The notes beneath the pieces were generated by a model. The model was not told the DNA's origin. It did not search any database and saw only the letters and a list, made by a program, of their open reading frames with translations. The position numbers were made by a program, and so were the translations under genes. From NCBI RefSeq assembly GCF_003129605.1, contig NZ_QBDX01000001.1, positions 62,001 through 126,000 of the forward strand: a stretch of DNA of 64,000 nucleotides, written 5' to 3'. Positions 49,061 to 60,296 of the stretch are shown here, piece after piece. Within the stretch, counting starts at the first letter, position 1. Each line of letters begins with the position of its first letter. This DNA is from Hyphobacterium indicum. GTDB lineage: Bacteria; Pseudomonadota; Alphaproteobacteria; Caulobacterales; Maricaulaceae.

Positions 49061-49400
49061 ATGGGCAGGAACAGATTTAGCGACGATTTTAAGAGGGACC
49101 CGGTGGCGCAGATCACGCAGCGCGGCTACCGGGTTGCGGAAATGTTGGAGCGGCCCGGTGTGAGCCAGCATTCGCTCTACGCGTGGAAGCGGCAGTTCTC
49201 GAAGGCCACGTCCGGCGAGACGGGTTCAAGGAGAGCCGAAAAATCGCGCTGGAAGAATGGCCGAAAGTTGCCGCCTAAACCGACTAATGGCTGGTACACA
49301 GAGACCGCTTCGCGTTCGTCAGAGATCACCGCCACCCTCACAAATGCGTGCCCGCCCATTATTCGGTCGCGGCCTCCGAAGGTCCGTGCTTTAATCCGGC
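49061..49400 (+). pseudogene. IS3-type transposase remnant (orfA start plus degenerate orfB traces)
   Basis: MGRNRFSDDFKRDPVAQITQ followed by RGYRVAEMLERPGVSQHSLY matches the N-terminal helix-turn-helix of IS3-family OrfA. After about 50 residues the frame loses homology; in another frame DRFAFVRDHRHPH resembles the start of OrfB. No inverted repeats were identified. The open frame happens to continue in-frame into the secreted protein at 49478, but that is a chance fusion. Confidence 0.6.
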
Positions 49401-49477
49401 CGCCATATCAGGACGGGAAATTTCCAGACCATGGTGACGCTGTCCGCATTCCTTGCGGACGCATAGGGAAAATGATC

Positions 49478-50077
49478 ATGAAATTTGTACATATGACCGC
49501 CGCCTTGATCCTTCTGATCAGCGGGCTGGGCGGGGCTGCATACGCTGACCCGAACGGACACACGACCAATTTCGTCCGCTTTGCGGAAGGCACGTTCGAA
49601 CGCACGCATGGGGGCGTTTGGCTGGAATTCGGCAATGGCAACAACGAGCCGCGATACACATGGCGGGAAACCCATCGCGATGAGTGGTCCGTCTATCTGC
49701 GTGATGACAGCCGCGAGATGAACATGCAGATCGACATGCACCGCAACTGGATCGGCCTCGAATGGGACGGCCACCCCATGCAGGACCAGTATCCCATCGT
49801 TGAAGCCGATGCGCGCATCAATGGCCGCCTTGTCACCCGGGTCGATTTTGATGGGGGCGCCTTCCGGATGACCCGCCCCGGACGCTGGCAGGAATTCAAC
49901 GCAGCCGGTCAGGCCACGAATGTATTCCGCGAGACCGGTCGCGACGCCTGGTCGGTCTATCTGCGCGACCAAAGCCGCAGCATGGACATGCAGATCGACA
50001 TGCACCGCAACTGGATCCGTCTGGCCTGGCCGGGTCACGACATGGCAGATCAGTACCGCATCACTGCCTCGCAGTAG
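49478..50077 (+). CDS. secreted protein with two tandem copies of an unknown domain
   Basis: 199 residues from the ATG at 49478 (AGGGA upstream; ATG 49472 is an alternative), with a signal peptide MKFVHMTAALILLISGLGGA ending AYA. The mature part is two copies of a domain of about 85 residues: each contains a basic-aromatic strand set (WLEFG/WQEFN), RETxRDxWSVYLRDxSR, then the near-identical block MQIDMHRNWI and ends in a WPGHxMxDQY-type motif. No family recognised. The copies align without gaps over most of their length, so this is a recent internal duplication. Confidence 0.75.
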   Translation: MKFVHMTAALILLISGLGGAAYADPNGHTTNFVRFAEGTFERTHGGVWLEFGNGNNEPRYTWRETHRDEWSVYLRDDSREMNMQIDMHRNWIGLEWDGHPMQDQYPIVEADARINGRLVTRVDFDGGAFRMTRPGRWQEFNAAGQATNVFRETGRDAWSVYLRDQSRSMDMQIDMHRNWIRLAWPGHDMADQYRITASQ

Positions 50078-50777: not shown

Positions 50778-50932
50778 CCGGCTCAGAGCACCGTTAAAAT
50801 CCGGCCAATGACGTTAAGCTTCCGGAAAGCAACAATTTAATTAACCCTTTGGAAACCAATAAAATTAGCTCGAATTTGAATTAAATGCGCGAAAACCGTC
50901 CCCACATTCAGGCAATCCTTATGGGGGATGAC
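50778..50932 (+). promoter_or_regulatory. AT-rich upstream region of the autotransporter gene
   Basis: About 150 bases, clearly richer in A and T than the surroundings (TTTAATTAACCC and ATAAAATTAGC runs), consistent with a promoter region. I cannot assign exact promoter elements. Confidence 0.35.
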
Positions 50933-53878
50933 ATGAAAAAGTTTCTGCGCAACACCGCCGCCGCGTCCGTTCTGGCTTTCGCAATCACGCCGCTGACAGC
51001 CATTCCGGCGTGGGCCGGCGACGACTCGGAAACCACGGAGACGCCGACCTTCCTGTTCTCCTATCGCGGCGATATCGATCCTTTCCGCGGTGACATCAGC
51101 CCCTTCCATGGCGACATCAATCCCTTCCATGGGGACATCAATCCATTCCGCGGCGATATCTCACCCTTCTATGGAGACATCTCTCCCTTCTGGGGCGACA
51201 TTTCTCCCTTCTGGGGCGACATCAACCCTTTCCATGGCGACATCAATCCCTTCCACGGCGATATCAGCCCCTTCTGGGGTGATATCTCGCCCTTCCGCGG
51301 TGACATCGATCCCTTCTATGGCGACATCAACCCGTTCTACGGTGATATCAGCCCGTTCTGGGGCGACATCGGTCCGTTCTGGGGCGATATCAACGCTTTC
51401 TGGGGCGACATTGATCCCTTCGAGGAAACATCCACATCAGAATATGCCTCGGTGGCCGAGCAACTCCAGGCCATCTTCGACCGCGCCGAAGAGGTCTTCG
51501 GAGCCGCCGTCGAACATGAAACCGGCCAGTCTGTTCATGAAGCGGTGCTCGCCGAGCTCCTCACCCGCTATGGTCTGGACCTGTCCGACCCGGACAGCCT
51601 CTCCAGCATGGATGCGGCAGACCGTTCAGCCTTCTTCCTGGACTTCTATGATGGTCTGATGGGCTTTACCGGTCTGGATCGCGTTGATCACTGGATGCCG
51701 GCCATCAACTGGACGCCGGCTCTCTCCCAGGCCGCCGGTGCCGGAAACAATGTGATCGTCGGCCTGCTCGACTTCTCCTTCACCAGTGAAGAAGCGCTGA
51801 ATGTCCGCAATTCCAAGGGTGAACGCGCCTATTTGAATTTTGCTCATGGGGCGGCCGTTGCCAGCCTGATCAATGCGCCGCTGGATGGCGAGGGCCTGAT
51901 GGGCCTGGCACCGGATGCCACCCTGGTCACCTATAACCCGTTTGATGACACGCTCTCGACCAATTTCGACGATGTCCGTGATGGTATCGATGCGCTTTTG
52001 ACCGGCGGAGCCCATGTGATCAACATGTCGCTGGGTGTGCCGGGCACGACCTTCTCCCAGGAATGGGCGGATGTGTTCAGCGACAGACAGGTCGCCAGAC
52101 GTGCTGACGACGCCCTCTTTGTGGTCGCTGCAGGCAATGATGGCTATACGCAGGACTTCGATGTCGACTGGTCATCCGTGGGCTCTGTCGACAATCTGAT
52201 CATTGTCGGTTCTGTTGATCCCGCCAGCAATATTTCGACCTTCTCCAACCGTCCGGGTGAGGCCTGCTTCACCGTCAATGGCGTCTGTGAAGAGGGTAAT
52301 CGCCTGATGGACCGCTTCCTGGTCGCACCGGGCGAGCTGATCCTGGTGTCCGATGGCGAAGGCGGCGTAATCCGTCAGTCCGGCACCTCCTTTGCGGCCC
52401 CGATGGTGGCCGGAGCGGCTGCCCTGGTTCAGGGCCGCTGGGGATGGCTGGAATCCGGTGATGTGGCCGATGTGCTGCTGCGCTCGGCCCGTGATCTGGG
52501 CGATCCGGGCACAGACGCCGTCTATGGCCGCGGCATGCTGGATGTCGGGGCTGCCATGTCGCCGCTTGACCCGGACAATCTCTATATTGTCACAGGGGAT
52601 CTGAAACGCCGGGACGTCGCGGGCGCTGTCCGTACACGTGGCCGTCTCACCTTCTACTCGGCAGATGAAAACAGCGTCGTCCTGTTCGAGGACCTTAATG
52701 ATACCTTCCGCGACTTCGTTGTCTCGCTTGACGATTTGACGCTGGACATGAGCGATGACGAGCTGGAATCTGCGGTCAATGCGGAAACCTATCTCATCGA
52801 ACGCAATCGCGATGCTGACAGCGATGATGATGGCGCTGCCGATTTCCGCGACACAACGGATTATACGGCACCACTTGCGGCACGGGGTGACTTCCGCATC
52901 ACGGCGGTCATGTCCAGCCACGATCCGCGCGAAAACATCACCGATGGCGAGTTGCCGGTTCAGCTGGGCATCCGCATGACGGACCGCGTATCCGGCCGTG
53001 AAATGCGCTTCGGGCTTGGCAATGGCGCATTGGCCTTCTCGGGTCAGAACAGCTTCGGGCTCTTCTCGGACCACCGTCCGGAAACCGGCGGCGTCAATCC
53101 GGTCCTCGGTTTTGCCTCCGGCGGCCTTTACGGCATGGGCACCTACACGCTGGATAACCGGACACGCTTCAATTTCGGTGTCTCCACCGAACGGGATGAG
53201 GACATGTATGTCCTGCCTTATTCCGGCGAGGAACGGTCCCGCATTTCAGGCCTGGATGCCTATCAGGCCACCGCCTTTGCCGGCGGGATCGAACACACGG
53301 TCCGCGAGGGTCTGGATGTCAATCTCTCCTACACGCTTCTGCGGGAGGACGCCGGTTTCCTAGGGGCGCAAGGCACCGGCCCGCTGGATTTCAGCGGTGG
53401 CACAATGACCGACGCGGTGACGTTCGGAACGTCGGTCGCCTTGCCCATGGCGCTCAATCTTGACGCCTCGGCAACCCTGGCCCGGACCCGTGCAGGAGAC
53501 TTCGACAGCGAGGTCCTGGAATTGTCACAAGATGCGATGTCCACGGCCTTCCAGGTCACAATGACCCGAAATGGTCTGGTCTCGGACAGAGATGCGCTGC
53601 GTGTCAGCCTGATCCAGCCCCTGCATATTGAAAGCGGTGAAATGCGTTATACCGCTGCCGGCATTACAGATCGCGAAAGTGGTGCGCTGGAGGTTTCGAC
53701 GCAAACTTGGCGTCTGGGCGGGGAACGTCCGCTTTTCGCCGAGGCGATGTATGGCACCTACCTCTTCGACGGATCGACGGAATTCAGCTTCTATTCGAGG
53801 GTTGAGTTGTCGGGCGATGGCCAATCCGACGATATCAGCGGCTTTACGGCCGGGGGCCGCCTCCGCTTCGAATTCTAG
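50933..53878 (+). CDS. subtilisin-like (S8) autotransporter with 17 GDIxPFx heptads
   Basis: 981 residues from the ATG at 50933. Signal peptide to about residue 31 (ending PAWAG). Residues 46-164 are 17 perfectly phased heptads G-D-I-[DSNG]-[PA]-F-[RHYWE]. The S8 domain has a candidate triad Asp280 (GLLDFS), His305 (FAHGAAVAS) and Ser486 (SGTSFAAPMVAGAAAL). A linker with an acidic D-rich stretch (DADSDDDGAADFRDT) leads to a C-terminal region of about 280 residues with alternating hydrophobic strands ending RLRFEF with a terminal Phe, as in outer-membrane barrels. It should be exported, with the barrel in the outer membrane and the protease and heptads outside. The heptad region resembles no named repeat I know. 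Confidence 0.88.
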   Translation: MKKFLRNTAAASVLAFAITPLTAIPAWAGDDSETTETPTFLFSYRGDIDPFRGDISPFHGDINPFHGDINPFRGDISPFYGDISPFWGDISPFWGDINPFHGDINPFHGDISPFWGDISPFRGDIDPFYGDINPFYGDISPFWGDIGPFWGDINAFWGDIDPFEETSTSEYASVAEQLQAIFDRAEEVFGAAVEHETGQSVHEAVLAELLTRYGLDLSDPDSLSSMDAADRSAFFLDFYDGLMGFTGLDRVDHWMPAINWTPALSQAAGAGNNVIVGLLDFSFTSEEALNVRNSKGERAYLNFAHGAAVASLINAPLDGEGLMGLAPDATLVTYNPFDDTLSTNFDDVRDGIDALLTGGAHVINMSLGVPGTTFSQEWADVFSDRQVARRADDALFVVAAGNDGYTQDFDVDWSSVGSVDNLIIVGSVDPASNISTFSNRPGEACFTVNGVCEEGNRLMDRFLVAPGELILVSDGEGGVIRQSGTSFAAPMVAGAAALVQGRWGWLESGDVADVLLRSARDLGDPGTDAVYGRGMLDVGAAMSPLDPDNLYIVTGDLKRRDVAGAVRTRGRLTFYSADENSVVLFEDLNDTFRDFVVSLDDLTLDMSDDELESAVNAETYLIERNRDADSDDDGAADFRDTTDYTAPLAARGDFRITAVMSSHDPRENITDGELPVQLGIRMTDRVSGREMRFGLGNGALAFSGQNSFGLFSDHRPETGGVNPVLGFASGGLYGMGTYTLDNRTRFNFGVSTERDEDMYVLPYSGEERSRISGLDAYQATAFAGGIEHTVREGLDVNLSYTLLREDAGFLGAQGTGPLDFSGGTMTDAVTFGTSVALPMALNLDASATLARTRAGDFDSEVLELSQDAMSTAFQVTMTRNGLVSDRDALRVSLIQPLHIESGEMRYTAAGITDRESGALEVSTQTWRLGGERPLFAEAMYGTYLFDGSTEFSFYSRVELSGDGQSDDISGFTAGGRLRFEF
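51068..51424 (+). repeat. 21-bp tandem repeat encoding the GDIxPFx heptads
   Basis: 17 in-frame units of 21 bases, variants of GGCGACATCAATCCCTTC plus a variable last codon (CAT, CGC, TGG, TAT). Unit order mixes variants rather than forming identical blocks, so the array is old but still uniform in length. Confidence 0.9.
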
Positions 53879-53907
53879 ACTGCGTGATCTATTGCTGGTC
53901 CGCCTTG

Positions 53908-53942
53908 CCCCCTTCCGGTCACCGGGAGGGGGTTTTCTTTTC
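53908..53942 (+). terminator. intrinsic terminator after the autotransporter gene
   Basis: 11-base stem CCCCCTTCCGG/CCGGGAGGGGG with one G-U pair (53908-53918 with 53922-53932), loop TCA, followed by TTTTCTTTT. It lies 30 bases after the stop and about 100 bases before the next gene. Confidence 0.85.
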
Positions 53943-54042
53943 AATCCATGGGAATCCGGCCCGGCTGATTTGATAAATCTTAAGGCCTTTGTGATTGGTT
54001 GCTGGTTGACCGGCGTGGCCGGAACCGGTGCTGGAGACAGCA

Positions 54043-56628
54043 ATGTCATGGTGGAAATGGATTACGGGGCTTGCTCTTGCCTTTGTGCTTCTGGCGGCAC
54101 CTGAGGCCTATTCGCAGGCCAGTGAGCTCGCTCCATCACCCTATGCCAATGCCATTGAGGCTGCCCGCACCAACATGATGAGCGATCCTGTGGCCGCGCT
54201 GGAGAACGCACAACGCGCTGAACAGCTTGTGCCGGTGGATTTTGACGGCGACACCCGAAACCTTGCTCTGGCGTCTGCTGCCTGGCTGCAATCGGAAGCG
54301 ATGACACGGCTGGGACGGCCCGGCGAAGCGCTCCCTGTCGCTGAACGTGCCCTGGCGCTATTGGGAGAAGACCCGGCTCCGACAAAGCTTTTTGCCGACA
54401 CGCTGCTGTCGATCGGCCGCATTCTGAAACTGACGGGCGAACACGGGCAGGCGCTGGAAATCTTGCAGCAGGCCTTTGATGTCTATTCCGCGATCGGCGA
54501 GACCCGCAGTCAGGCGATTGTCCTGCAATCCATTGGTTCGATCTACAATGACGCGCGCCAGTATGAACGCGCCATCGAATATTTCGCGGATGCCGTCGAG
54601 CGGCACCGGGACACCAATCTCGATCTCGCTGCCTTCAACAATCTGGGCAATGCCTACACGGCTCTGGAGCAATATTCCGAGGCGCTGGAATATTATGATC
54701 AGGCGCTGGCCGCAGCCGAAACAATGGGCAGTGGCATGCTGCAGGCGCGCATTCTCAACAATGTGGCGTCCCTGCACATCGCCAATGAAGACTGGGCGGC
54801 GGCGGAAGCCTCCGTTGATCAGGCCTTCGCAGCCGCCGGTGATGCCTCGGGGGGCGAGTGGGCGCGTTTTCTGTGGGGCGTCCGGGCGCAGGCTGCTCTG
54901 GGCCGGGAGGAATATCAGGCTGCGCGGACAGGAATGGAACGCGTGTTCGAGGGCGTGACGCTCGGCGAAACCAACCACCATTTTACTGATTTTCATGATT
55001 CTGCAGCCCGAATCTATGAAGCCTTGGGCGAATACGAGCTGGCGATTGCCCATCTGCGGGCCTTCAAACGCCTGGAAGATGATGGCCGTGAATTTGCCGC
55101 CAACGCCAACTCCGCGCTGATCGGGGCCCAGTTCGATTTTGCGGCTCAGGATCTGCAGATCCAGCAATTGCGTGCCGAAGGCCTGGCCCGTGATCTCGCA
55201 CTGGCGCAGAGCGAAGCCCGCCAGCGGATGATCATTGGTCTGTCGGCGGGTGCCTTGATGCTATTGGCACTGATCGGCATGGTGATGGCGATGCTGGGCT
55301 TCCGCGCCCGTGCCCGCCTGATGCGGGAACAGTTGAACACGGATGCAGAAACCGGCTTGCCAACCCGTCATGCCCTGGTCGCGGAACGGGATCAGGCTGT
55401 CCGTGAGGGCGTACCCCCGGAATATATCGCGGTGATCCATCTTGAACGGGCCTCCCACATCGAAAGCCTTCTGGGCTTCGCCAGTTTCATTGAAATGCAG
55501 CGCTTGCTGGGCGAGCGCTTGCGGGCCATTGACGGTGTGACGAGTGTGGCCCTGATGGGGGCGGGTGAGTTTGGTGTCCTGCTCGATACAACTGACGAAT
55601 TGGTTGTCGACGATGAAATGAACACCCTGAGCGACATTTTCAGCCAGCCGATCAATATTGACGGCGTGAATGTCGATGTCAGCGCGACGATCGGACTGGA
55701 TAATGACGCCCGGAGCGAAATTGCGGTCCGCAACGCCATCATCGCGGTGAGCCAGGCCCATGATCAGGGCGCAGCGTTCGCTATCTATAACGAGCACCGC
55801 TTCGGCGACCCGGCCGATAATCTCAATCTGATGACCCGCATGCTGGCTGCTACAGAAAGCGGCGAGATGCAGATGCATTACCAGCCAAAGCTCGACCTGC
55901 GAAAAGGCGTCTATACGTCAGCAGAAGCGCTCTGCCGCTGGAATGATCCGGAGCGCGGCTATATTTCTCCGGACACCTTCATTCCGCAGGCCGAGGAAAC
56001 CGGCAAGATTCGGGAGCTGACCGAATGGACGGTACGCAAGGTCCTTCAGGACAAGCGCAGGCTCATCGCCGCCGGGCACGAAATTTCCGTTGCCATCAAT
56101 ATTTCCGGCCGTCTTCTGGCGGATCCGAAATTCGGTCAACGCATTCTGGAAATCGTCGGCTTCGGCGCGACCGGCCTGATCTTTGAGATCACCGAAACCG
56201 CCATGATGTCCAACCCGGACCGGGCCATGCACAATCTCGACCGCTGGGTCGATGCGGGTATCCGCCTGGCCATTGATGATTACGGGACAGGATTTTCCTC
56301 GCTGGCCTATCTCAAGCGGTTGCCGTGCCATGAACTGAAAATCGACCGGGTTTTTGTCAAGGGCGCGCACACTTCGGCGAAGGATCGCACGCTTCTGAAA
56401 TCCACCATCGATCTGGCTCACAATCTTGGCATGTCTGTGACGGCAGAAGGCGTGGAGGGGGACGACATCCTGTCCGCACTCAGCGTTATGGGATGCGACA
56501 TGGCGCAAGGGTATGGTTTGTCAAAAGCCCTGCCTTCAGATCAGCTCCTGACCTTCCTCGAACAGCACACATCCACACCGATCCCTGCCCGTCCGGCGGC
56601 CAGCCCGTTCCGCAATGTGAACAAGTGA
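54043..56628 (+). CDS. TPR / degenerate GGDEF / EAL cyclic di-GMP phosphodiesterase, membrane-anchored
   Basis: 861 residues from the ATG at 54043 (GGAG 6 bases upstream). Signal peptide, then a periplasmic TPR array (about residues 85-330, e.g. FNNLGNAYTALEQYSEALEYYDQAL), a transmembrane helix near 396-418, a GGDEF-like domain with GAGEF in place of GGDEF, and an EAL domain from about 605 with SAEALCRW, NISGRL, EITETA, DDYGTGFSSLAYLKRLP, KIDRVFVKG and AEGVEG. The EAL residues for metal and substrate binding look intact, so it should hydrolyse cyclic di-GMP, while the GGDEF-like part is probably regulatory. Extracytoplasmic TPRs would let it sense an envelope signal or protein. Confidence 0.9.
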   Translation: MSWWKWITGLALAFVLLAAPEAYSQASELAPSPYANAIEAARTNMMSDPVAALENAQRAEQLVPVDFDGDTRNLALASAAWLQSEAMTRLGRPGEALPVAERALALLGEDPAPTKLFADTLLSIGRILKLTGEHGQALEILQQAFDVYSAIGETRSQAIVLQSIGSIYNDARQYERAIEYFADAVERHRDTNLDLAAFNNLGNAYTALEQYSEALEYYDQALAAAETMGSGMLQARILNNVASLHIANEDWAAAEASVDQAFAAAGDASGGEWARFLWGVRAQAALGREEYQAARTGMERVFEGVTLGETNHHFTDFHDSAARIYEALGEYELAIAHLRAFKRLEDDGREFAANANSALIGAQFDFAAQDLQIQQLRAEGLARDLALAQSEARQRMIIGLSAGALMLLALIGMVMAMLGFRARARLMREQLNTDAETGLPTRHALVAERDQAVREGVPPEYIAVIHLERASHIESLLGFASFIEMQRLLGERLRAIDGVTSVALMGAGEFGVLLDTTDELVVDDEMNTLSDIFSQPINIDGVNVDVSATIGLDNDARSEIAVRNAIIAVSQAHDQGAAFAIYNEHRFGDPADNLNLMTRMLAATESGEMQMHYQPKLDLRKGVYTSAEALCRWNDPERGYISPDTFIPQAEETGKIRELTEWTVRKVLQDKRRLIAAGHEISVAINISGRLLADPKFGQRILEIVGFGATGLIFEITETAMMSNPDRAMHNLDRWVDAGIRLAIDDYGTGFSSLAYLKRLPCHELKIDRVFVKGAHTSAKDRTLLKSTIDLAHNLGMSVTAEGVEGDDILSALSVMGCDMAQGYGLSKALPSDQLLTFLEQHTSTPIPARPAASPFRNVNK

Positions 56629-59780: not shown

Positions 59781-60296
59781 CTAGTGATCGCCCTGGATCA
59801 CCAGGGTGACATTTCCACTACCGCGTTGACGCAGTGAGCCACGATTGCCATTTCCGACCTGGATGATCGCCCCGGCATTGTTATTACCGGCTTGGTCGGT
59901 CACGGCCGAATTGTTCGACCCCATCTGGTAGATGCCCGACAGATTGTTATTGCCGGTCTGGACCGCCGTGGCGCCATTATTATAGCCCTGCTGGCCAATG
60001 ACAGCGTCATTGCGGCGGCCATACTGATCGACATAGGCGTCGTTATAGCTGCCTTGCTGGGCCACTGTAGTGCCATTATAGCTGCCATCCTGCATGATCA
60101 AGATGTGCTGGCGATAGCCGTCCTGGCGCAACGAGGCGCTGTTGCGCGAGCCATACTGGCGTCCTGCAACTTCGTTCTGCACGCCATACTGGTTCACGCG
60201 AACCTCATTGCGGCGGGACTGGGCGTCAGCGGCACCGGCCATGCTGACAACGGAAGCGGCGACAAATGCGCCGGCGATCAGGGTGCGAAGTTTCAT
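59781..60296 (-). CDS. curlin-like fibre subunit
   Basis: 171 residues with a signal peptide (ending AGAADAQ). The mature protein is a chain of degenerate repeats of about 20 residues with the curlin spacing, for example VNQYGVQNEVAGRQYGSRNS, MQDGSYNGTTVAQQGSYNDA and IYQMGSNNSAVTDQAGNNNA, rich in Q-x-G and N. This is the pattern of CsgA/CsgB-type amyloid subunits. The genes for CsgG, CsgE and CsgF are not in the window. The gene lies 180 bases downstream of the CsgH-like gene on the same strand. Confidence 0.88.
   Translation of the reverse strand: MKLRTLIAGAFVAASVVSMAGAADAQSRRNEVRVNQYGVQNEVAGRQYGSRNSASLRQDGYRQHILIMQDGSYNGTTVAQQGSYNDAYVDQYGRRNDAVIGQQGYNNGATAVQTGNNNLSGIYQMGSNNSAVTDQAGNNNAGAIIQVGNGNRGSLRQRGSGNVTLVIQGDH

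Follow-up and report, generated by a model that had tools for sequence, protein, structure and literature searches.

In LapD/LapG and FecA/FecR, an inner-membrane receptor with a periplasmic domain and a c-di-GMP or regulatory output is coupled to a protease or an outer-membrane barrel. Peptide signals that are genetically encoded and read by TPR proteins are known from Bacillota, the TPR receptors of which bind peptides of 5-10 aa derived from propeptides with repeated pheromones (PMC11343458). In these RRNPPA systems (Rap/Phr, PlcR/PapR, PrgX, and AimR), a multi-TPR receptor is encoded beside a secreted precursor containing repeated short peptides. Subtilisin-like autotransporters (Ssp, SphB1, NalP, and EprS), which constitute group 15, combine a signal peptide, an S8 protease, and a C-terminal barrel in one chain (PMC9289746), with the protease located near the N-terminus and followed by a beta-helix of ~200 aa (PMC9289746, PMC9977779). 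The locus described herein lies in a 64,000-nt stretch of the Hyphobacterium indicum genome (contig NZ_QBDX01000001.1, positions 62,001 to 126,000; hereafter, the window) and comprises two adjacent genes. The resemblance of a repeat array in the first gene product to the cut site of its own protease, together with an adjacent TPR sensor, suggests an undescribed Gram-negative peptide signaling system; any novelty would lie in the assembled module, as each component family is already known.

The first gene (50933-53878, + strand) was identified as an open reading frame with homologues and encodes a protein of 981 aa. Its putative signal peptide (MKKFLRNTAAASVLAFAITPLTAIPAWA; 50933-51016, +) was recognized by inspection, and complete homologues also have a hydrophobic start. 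Because this signal peptide supports the start at 50933, it was favored over an alternative upstream ATG at 50885. Translation of 50933-53878 confirmed that residues 46-164 (51068-51424, +) consist of 17 in-phase heptads of GDIxPFx, the feature on which the original prediction centered. As stated there, only positions 4, 5, and 7 vary: positions 1, 2, 3, and 6 are G, D, I, and F in 17/17 units, position 4 is S, N, D, or G, position 5 is P in 16/17 and A in 1/17, and position 7 is mostly R, H, Y, or W (W6, H4, R3, Y3, and E1). The view that this repeat does not match RTX, TPR, or collagen-like repeats also held in the window protein, in which residues 46-164 matched no TPR, RTX, collagen, pentapeptide, or other Pfam repeat family; among 49 homologues, Peptidase_S8 was the only Pfam family to match more than one. 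A DNA pattern for two heptads had 14 matches in the 2.79-Mb genome, every one within the array, and its reversed control had 0.

A slippage artefact was rejected because no two of the 17 21-mers are identical, Ser is encoded by TCN as well as AGC codons, and arrays are conserved in two orders, which also disposes of the concern that the repeat might be present in this strain only. The absence of identical 21-base units and the diversity of synonymous positions (third-base identity of 0.62 at identical residues of the heptads) indicate an old array that has been maintained by selection at the protein level. In a comparison of the host protein with its homologue at locus L013, pN was 0.025 in the heptads, 0.047 in the S8 domain, and 0.054 in the C-terminus, whereas pS was around 0.5-0.6; the alignment of repeats can inflate identity, and heptad copy number and order are 1:1 in the closest pair. 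By this measure, no other part of the protein is as strongly constrained between relatives as the heptads. An apparent antisense homology of the array was discarded, as palindromic GATATC/GACATC codons produce weak reverse-frame matches with stops.

Full-length homologues with 45-95% identity, all carrying arrays, were found across the host's own family. The named genomes that match the pattern belong nearly all to Caulobacterales (Maricaulis, Parvularcula, Phenylobacterium, and Caulobacter) or Sphingomonadales (Erythrobacter, Sphingomonas, and relatives), and nothing was found in the viral/phage collection. An array of 4 to 50 units was present in 75/75 pairs of S8 protease and sensor in which the N-terminus was present; the sole array-less pair (L184) is truncated by a contig end. 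Orthologues without the strict pattern have other homogenized repeats (LHIDPL, MHLDPLE with 50 units, GNVSPL, GSIDPI, GNLDSF, GRINPF, GKIAPF, GNINAW, and the SAWRDIEAF array of L188, which has a period of 9); further array sequences are GNLRPF and the GNLKPFY heptads of L122. Many arrays are interrupted. Since orthologues carry different homogenized repeats, arrays evolve in concert within a protein and diverge between lineages. The pattern [ILV]-x-[PAS]-[FLWI] is retained across lineages, even without G and D (LHIDPL and MHLDPLE) or with a period of 9; the same residue classes served to collect the units, a selection that biases the entropy values of positions 3, 5, and 6. Position 2 is D in only 54% of units and elsewhere N, H, T, K, or R, which makes the previously suggested metal array, or any array based on Asp, unlikely.

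Regarding matches that were set aside, stand-alone repeat proteins in one genome (G091) were both located at contig ends and are thus cut copies of the long gene, and small pattern matches at L071, L072, L097, L126, L134, and L139 look like chance or unrelated ORFs. At L187 (G388:C1:2918500-2933000), three tandem heptad proteases of the GNVSPL type lie beside a single sensor. The protease frame is split next to an intact sensor at L173 (G148:C1) and L105 (Phenylobacterium J367), reflecting either a sequencing error or a decaying protease.

The array is followed by a helical domain (residues 165-247; 51425-51673, +) that is conserved among aligned homologues, was modeled by AlphaFold with a pLDDT of mostly 80-92, and is a possible pro-domain. 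The subtilisin domain expected after the array was recovered as Peptidase S8 (residues 248-543; 51674-52561, +; Pfam PF00082, 8.5e-33). Along with this profile match, an Asp-His-Ser triad (D280, H305, and S486) and the oxyanion Asn (N402), all invariant across 49 homologues, point to an intact S8 protease, and the predicted domain (pLDDT about 90) superimposes on subtilisins with a VIA Z of 35, an rmsd of 1.9, and 257 aligned residues. The S1 and S4 positions are subtilisin-like (SLG 366-368 and AAGN 399-402), the S4 pocket being lined by F337, F/W345, V348, L367, and mostly W378. In the LHIDPL/MHLDPLE clade (L174, L177, and L179), the S4-pocket residue that corresponds to residue 104 of subtilisin is Glu instead of Trp. 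Covariation of the S1/S4 pockets with the P1 type was not retained as evidence because only one clade changes (LHIDPL-type, W104 to E), which is too few events.

The C-terminal barrel-like region of the original prediction was borne out by modeling. The C-terminal 426 residues were predicted as a barrel (AlphaFold pLDDT 86), and the outer-membrane beta-barrel itself would span residues 644-981 (52862-53875, +; model m1d4190b197d3) and end in a C-terminal F. The model has 12 strands in the last 250 aa and 4 earlier ones, its best listed matches are 16-strand porins, and it aligns with the Vibrio cholerae OmpT porin with a VIA Z of 16.8, an rmsd of 4.1, and 268 aligned residues. A C-terminal outer-membrane barrel is thus a predicted feature shared with type Va autotransporters, whereas the autotransporter profile PF03797 was not matched in the host protein or by Pfam in any of the 49 members. 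A comparison by hhalign with a PF03797 set from related genomes returned a probability of 3.6%, and the assignment to PF03797 was set aside for want of a profile relation. The 50 matches listed per structure search include no autotransporter barrel, although such a fold may still apply. Unlike group 15 autotransporters, the host protein carries the array and helical domain ahead of the protease, and in place of a beta-helix of ~200 aa, protease and barrel are separated by a spacer of about 100 aa, in which four short strands and a single helix were modeled. Because the modeled barrel is closer to 16-strand porins than to autotransporters, a periplasmic orientation of the protease is conceivable, and the label of a surface protease, which had been attached to this protein, is weakened accordingly.

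These features also bear on the idea of a surface structural or adhesive element, such as the rod or stalk of the original prediction, an aromatic sticker array, or a metal array, next to which the TPR neighbor would sense envelope stress. An aromatic-rich, regular repeat in a barrel-anchored protein is what such an element might look like; however, AlphaFold modeling with 49 homologues gave the array a pLDDT of only 26-49, the period and residues differ between arrays, many of which are interrupted, and a rigid rod or stalk is not supported by these properties. This explanation also offers no reason why the protease should be so strictly paired with a TPR sensor. We consider this explanation to be highly improbable.

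The important feature of this locus, which was absent from the original prediction, is the paired TPR sensor. The partner gene (54028-56628, +; GTG start, with an ATG at 54043 also possible) encodes a signal sequence, seven TPRs, a transmembrane segment, a degenerate GGDEF domain, and an EAL domain. The seven TPR units (residues 82-352; 54271-55083, +) are predicted to be periplasmic, the transmembrane segment (about residues 402-424; 55231-55299, +) is followed by FRARARLM, and the EAL output (55846-56526, +; Pfam PF00563, 7.7e-68) is that of a c-di-GMP phosphodiesterase. A terminator-like hairpin of 12 pairs lies between the two genes (53907-53933, +), and sites of this kind are no more frequent in the region than expected by chance; despite the conserved adjacency, this hairpin may imply separate or attenuated transcripts.

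In both orders, a sensor homologue adjoins almost all heptad proteases for which the flanking sequence is long enough, and a few arrays are without a nearby sensor. Among 398 genomes of the host's order, the sensor was present in 56/56 genomes with the protease and in 4/342 of the others, in which this protease was not detected (Fisher p 5e-64, without correction for relatedness). Of the 66 sensor copies, 59 are located on the same strand as the protease and no more than 1.5 kb downstream of it. Eleven further genomes with only more distant S8 homologues had no sensor, and the distant homologue that was inspected (L039) has a poly-Pro linker in place of the array. The output domains of the sensor swap while the TPR part is conserved (EAL in 19, GGDEF in 16, and HisKA in 15 of 36), and histidine kinase outputs are sometimes accompanied by REC. 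Within the TPR domain, conservation is higher in the groove than at the remaining positions outside the core (permutation p 0.04); the inner-groove residues W86, R94, and N204 are invariant in 42 thinned homologues, and E90 and D124 are near-invariant. An Asn in the groove is important in Rap (PMC11343458). As in RRNPPA receptors, the sensor has multiple TPRs, to which peptide binding may putatively be assigned, and the adjacency of precursor and receptor is matched by the 59/66 copies given above. RRNPPA receptors are cytoplasmic and act on DNA or a response regulator, whereas the present sensor is membrane-anchored with an EAL, GGDEF, or histidine kinase output; its partner, unlike RRNPPA precursors, has its own subtilase and barrel, up to 50 copies of the repeat, and an alphaproteobacterial host.

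The heptad protease is immediately preceded by an EAL gene at L152 (G429), L183 (G269), L186 (G350), L188 (G439), L187 (G388), L144, L123, and L087. Since those of these loci in which the sensor was covered have a histidine-kinase sensor, c-di-GMP recurs in the neighborhood.

The same pairing and conservation data would also be expected if the array remained uncut and served as a repetitive periplasmic ligand for the TPR sensor, which would then report whether the outer-membrane protease has been exported or assembled. An analogue of such a tether is the N-terminal extension that FecR reads on FecA. The array is flexible and directly follows the signal peptide, and domains N-terminal to a porin-like barrel would be periplasmic; nevertheless, this explanation does not account for why the conserved positions match P4, P2, and P1 of a subtilisin site, or why the protease is always in the same chain with its triad kept in 49/49 aligned members. 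We regard it as a serious but unlikely alternative. The analogy of our locus to LapD/LapG and FecA/FecR is one of layout, and in the present case, the layout consists of a TPR sensor and a protease with tandem sites.

The reading that we favor, albeit at slightly below an even chance, is that the array is a multicopy self-substrate, the heptapeptides of which are read by the TPR sensor, and that the two genes form an envelope signaling module. In each unit, I-x-P-F corresponds to the P4-P3-P2-P1 residues of a subtilisin-type site. Among the small peptides tested on a subtilisin, AAPF and AAPL performed best, with P3 being solvent-exposed, and that enzyme, a marine subtilase, cleaves its own pro-sequence at LKPF (PMC5821440), a string that recurs in the GNLKPFY heptads of L122; in Savinase, P4 and P1 preferences were placed in the corresponding loops (PMC3168465). 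We propose self-substrate reading because the positions that are kept are those read by subtilisins, the S1 and S4 pockets are canonical, TPR proteins have precedents as peptide receptors, and the groove contains invariant residues. The low array pLDDT, variable copy number, and strongest purifying selection in the heptads are in favor of this reading, as are the presence of an array in every intact pair, the retained [ILV]-x-[PAS]-[FLWI] pattern, the protease/sensor pairing, and the swapping of outputs next to a conserved TPR part.

We infer array cleavage, peptide release, TPR binding, and the direction of the signal as follows. The first gene would supply a subtilase anchored in the outer membrane with tandem copies of its own cleavage site right behind the signal peptide, each unit offering I/L/V at P4, any residue at P3, Pro/Ala/Ser at P2, and Phe/Leu/Trp/Ile at P1, which agrees with the S4-S1 pockets found further along this polypeptide. 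Cleavage after position 6 would convert the array into 4 to 50 short peptides, and the host strain would thereby yield 7-mers of about 770-850 Da, including WGDISPF, HGDINPF, and RGDISPF. The second gene would supply a membrane-anchored receptor in which the invariant concave lining of the periplasmic 7-TPR domain binds these peptides and controls an exchangeable cytoplasmic output, namely, a c-di-GMP phosphodiesterase in the host strain and a diguanylate cyclase or hybrid histidine kinase elsewhere. The module may provide a peptide signal, either autocrine or between cells, or it may report and amplify the activity of the protease.

The LKPF precedent may also be read differently. A substrate-like propeptide or decoy could keep the protease inactive or aid its folding or export, with the sensor detecting, for example, fragments of other substrates. 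The N-terminal position of the array conforms to this role, the pro-segments of subtilisins terminate in a P4-P1 peptide that resembles a product, LKPF is itself a pro-sequence self-cleavage site (PMC5821440), and the most consistent correlate of the heptad profile is the adjacent helical domain (three sets; partial r 0.35, 0.34, and 0.28). However, one site suffices for a pro-segment, not up to 50, and the tight link between the array and the TPR sensor is left unexplained, such that this explanation is, in our estimation, quite unlikely.

Several points count against the self-substrate reading. The four genomes with a sensor but no detected protease are among them, as are the few arrays that have no sensor nearby. 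P1' is often Trp or Tyr, which is not the classic subtilisin preference, and the intergenic hairpin, of a kind no commoner than chance in the region, separates the two genes. The fit to the protease motif is partly circular because the units were collected with the same motif, and when the heptad positions were reordered, an equally good fit was obtained in 168 of 5040 cases (3.3%), a test that shares this collection bias. Since positions 4 and 7 vary, with up to 11 different 7-mers in the host array, the receptor would need tolerance. Coevolution between the heptad profile and the TPR domain (partial Mantel; partial r 0.27 for all 67 loci and 0.31 when thinned) fell to 0.02 once seven loci with divergent arrays were removed, and because it was lost without these loci, it was not used as support.

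A wider form of the self-substrate reading, in which one outer-membrane protein unites a multicopy precursor, its processing protease, and a barrel anchor, a membrane TPR receptor carries swappable c-di-GMP or kinase outputs, and the arrays of different lineages represent different signal types, is conceivable but doubtful. The gene pair is real, conserved, widespread, and apparently undescribed: in the open-access literature, we found no description of the heptad motif or the protease/sensor pairing, no heptad strings in a protein context, and no combination of an autotransporter, TPR, EAL domain, serine protease, and periplasmic location. If the proposal is true, Gram-negative bacteria would have a previously unknown means of sensing peptides or the activity of a protease. 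Irrespective of the mechanism, an inner-membrane TPR-EAL/GGDEF/histidine kinase sensor gains a concrete and synthesizable candidate ligand.

Two other ORFs in the window were noted. A 171-aa ORF (59781-60296, - strand), located 3 kb beyond the c-di-GMP sensor gene, has curlin-like repeats (QxGxxNxAxxxQxG) and may encode a curli-type fiber subunit. At 49061-50077 (+), an IS3-type transposase-like start is joined to a secreted repeat protein, possibly as an insertion-sequence remnant or fusion.
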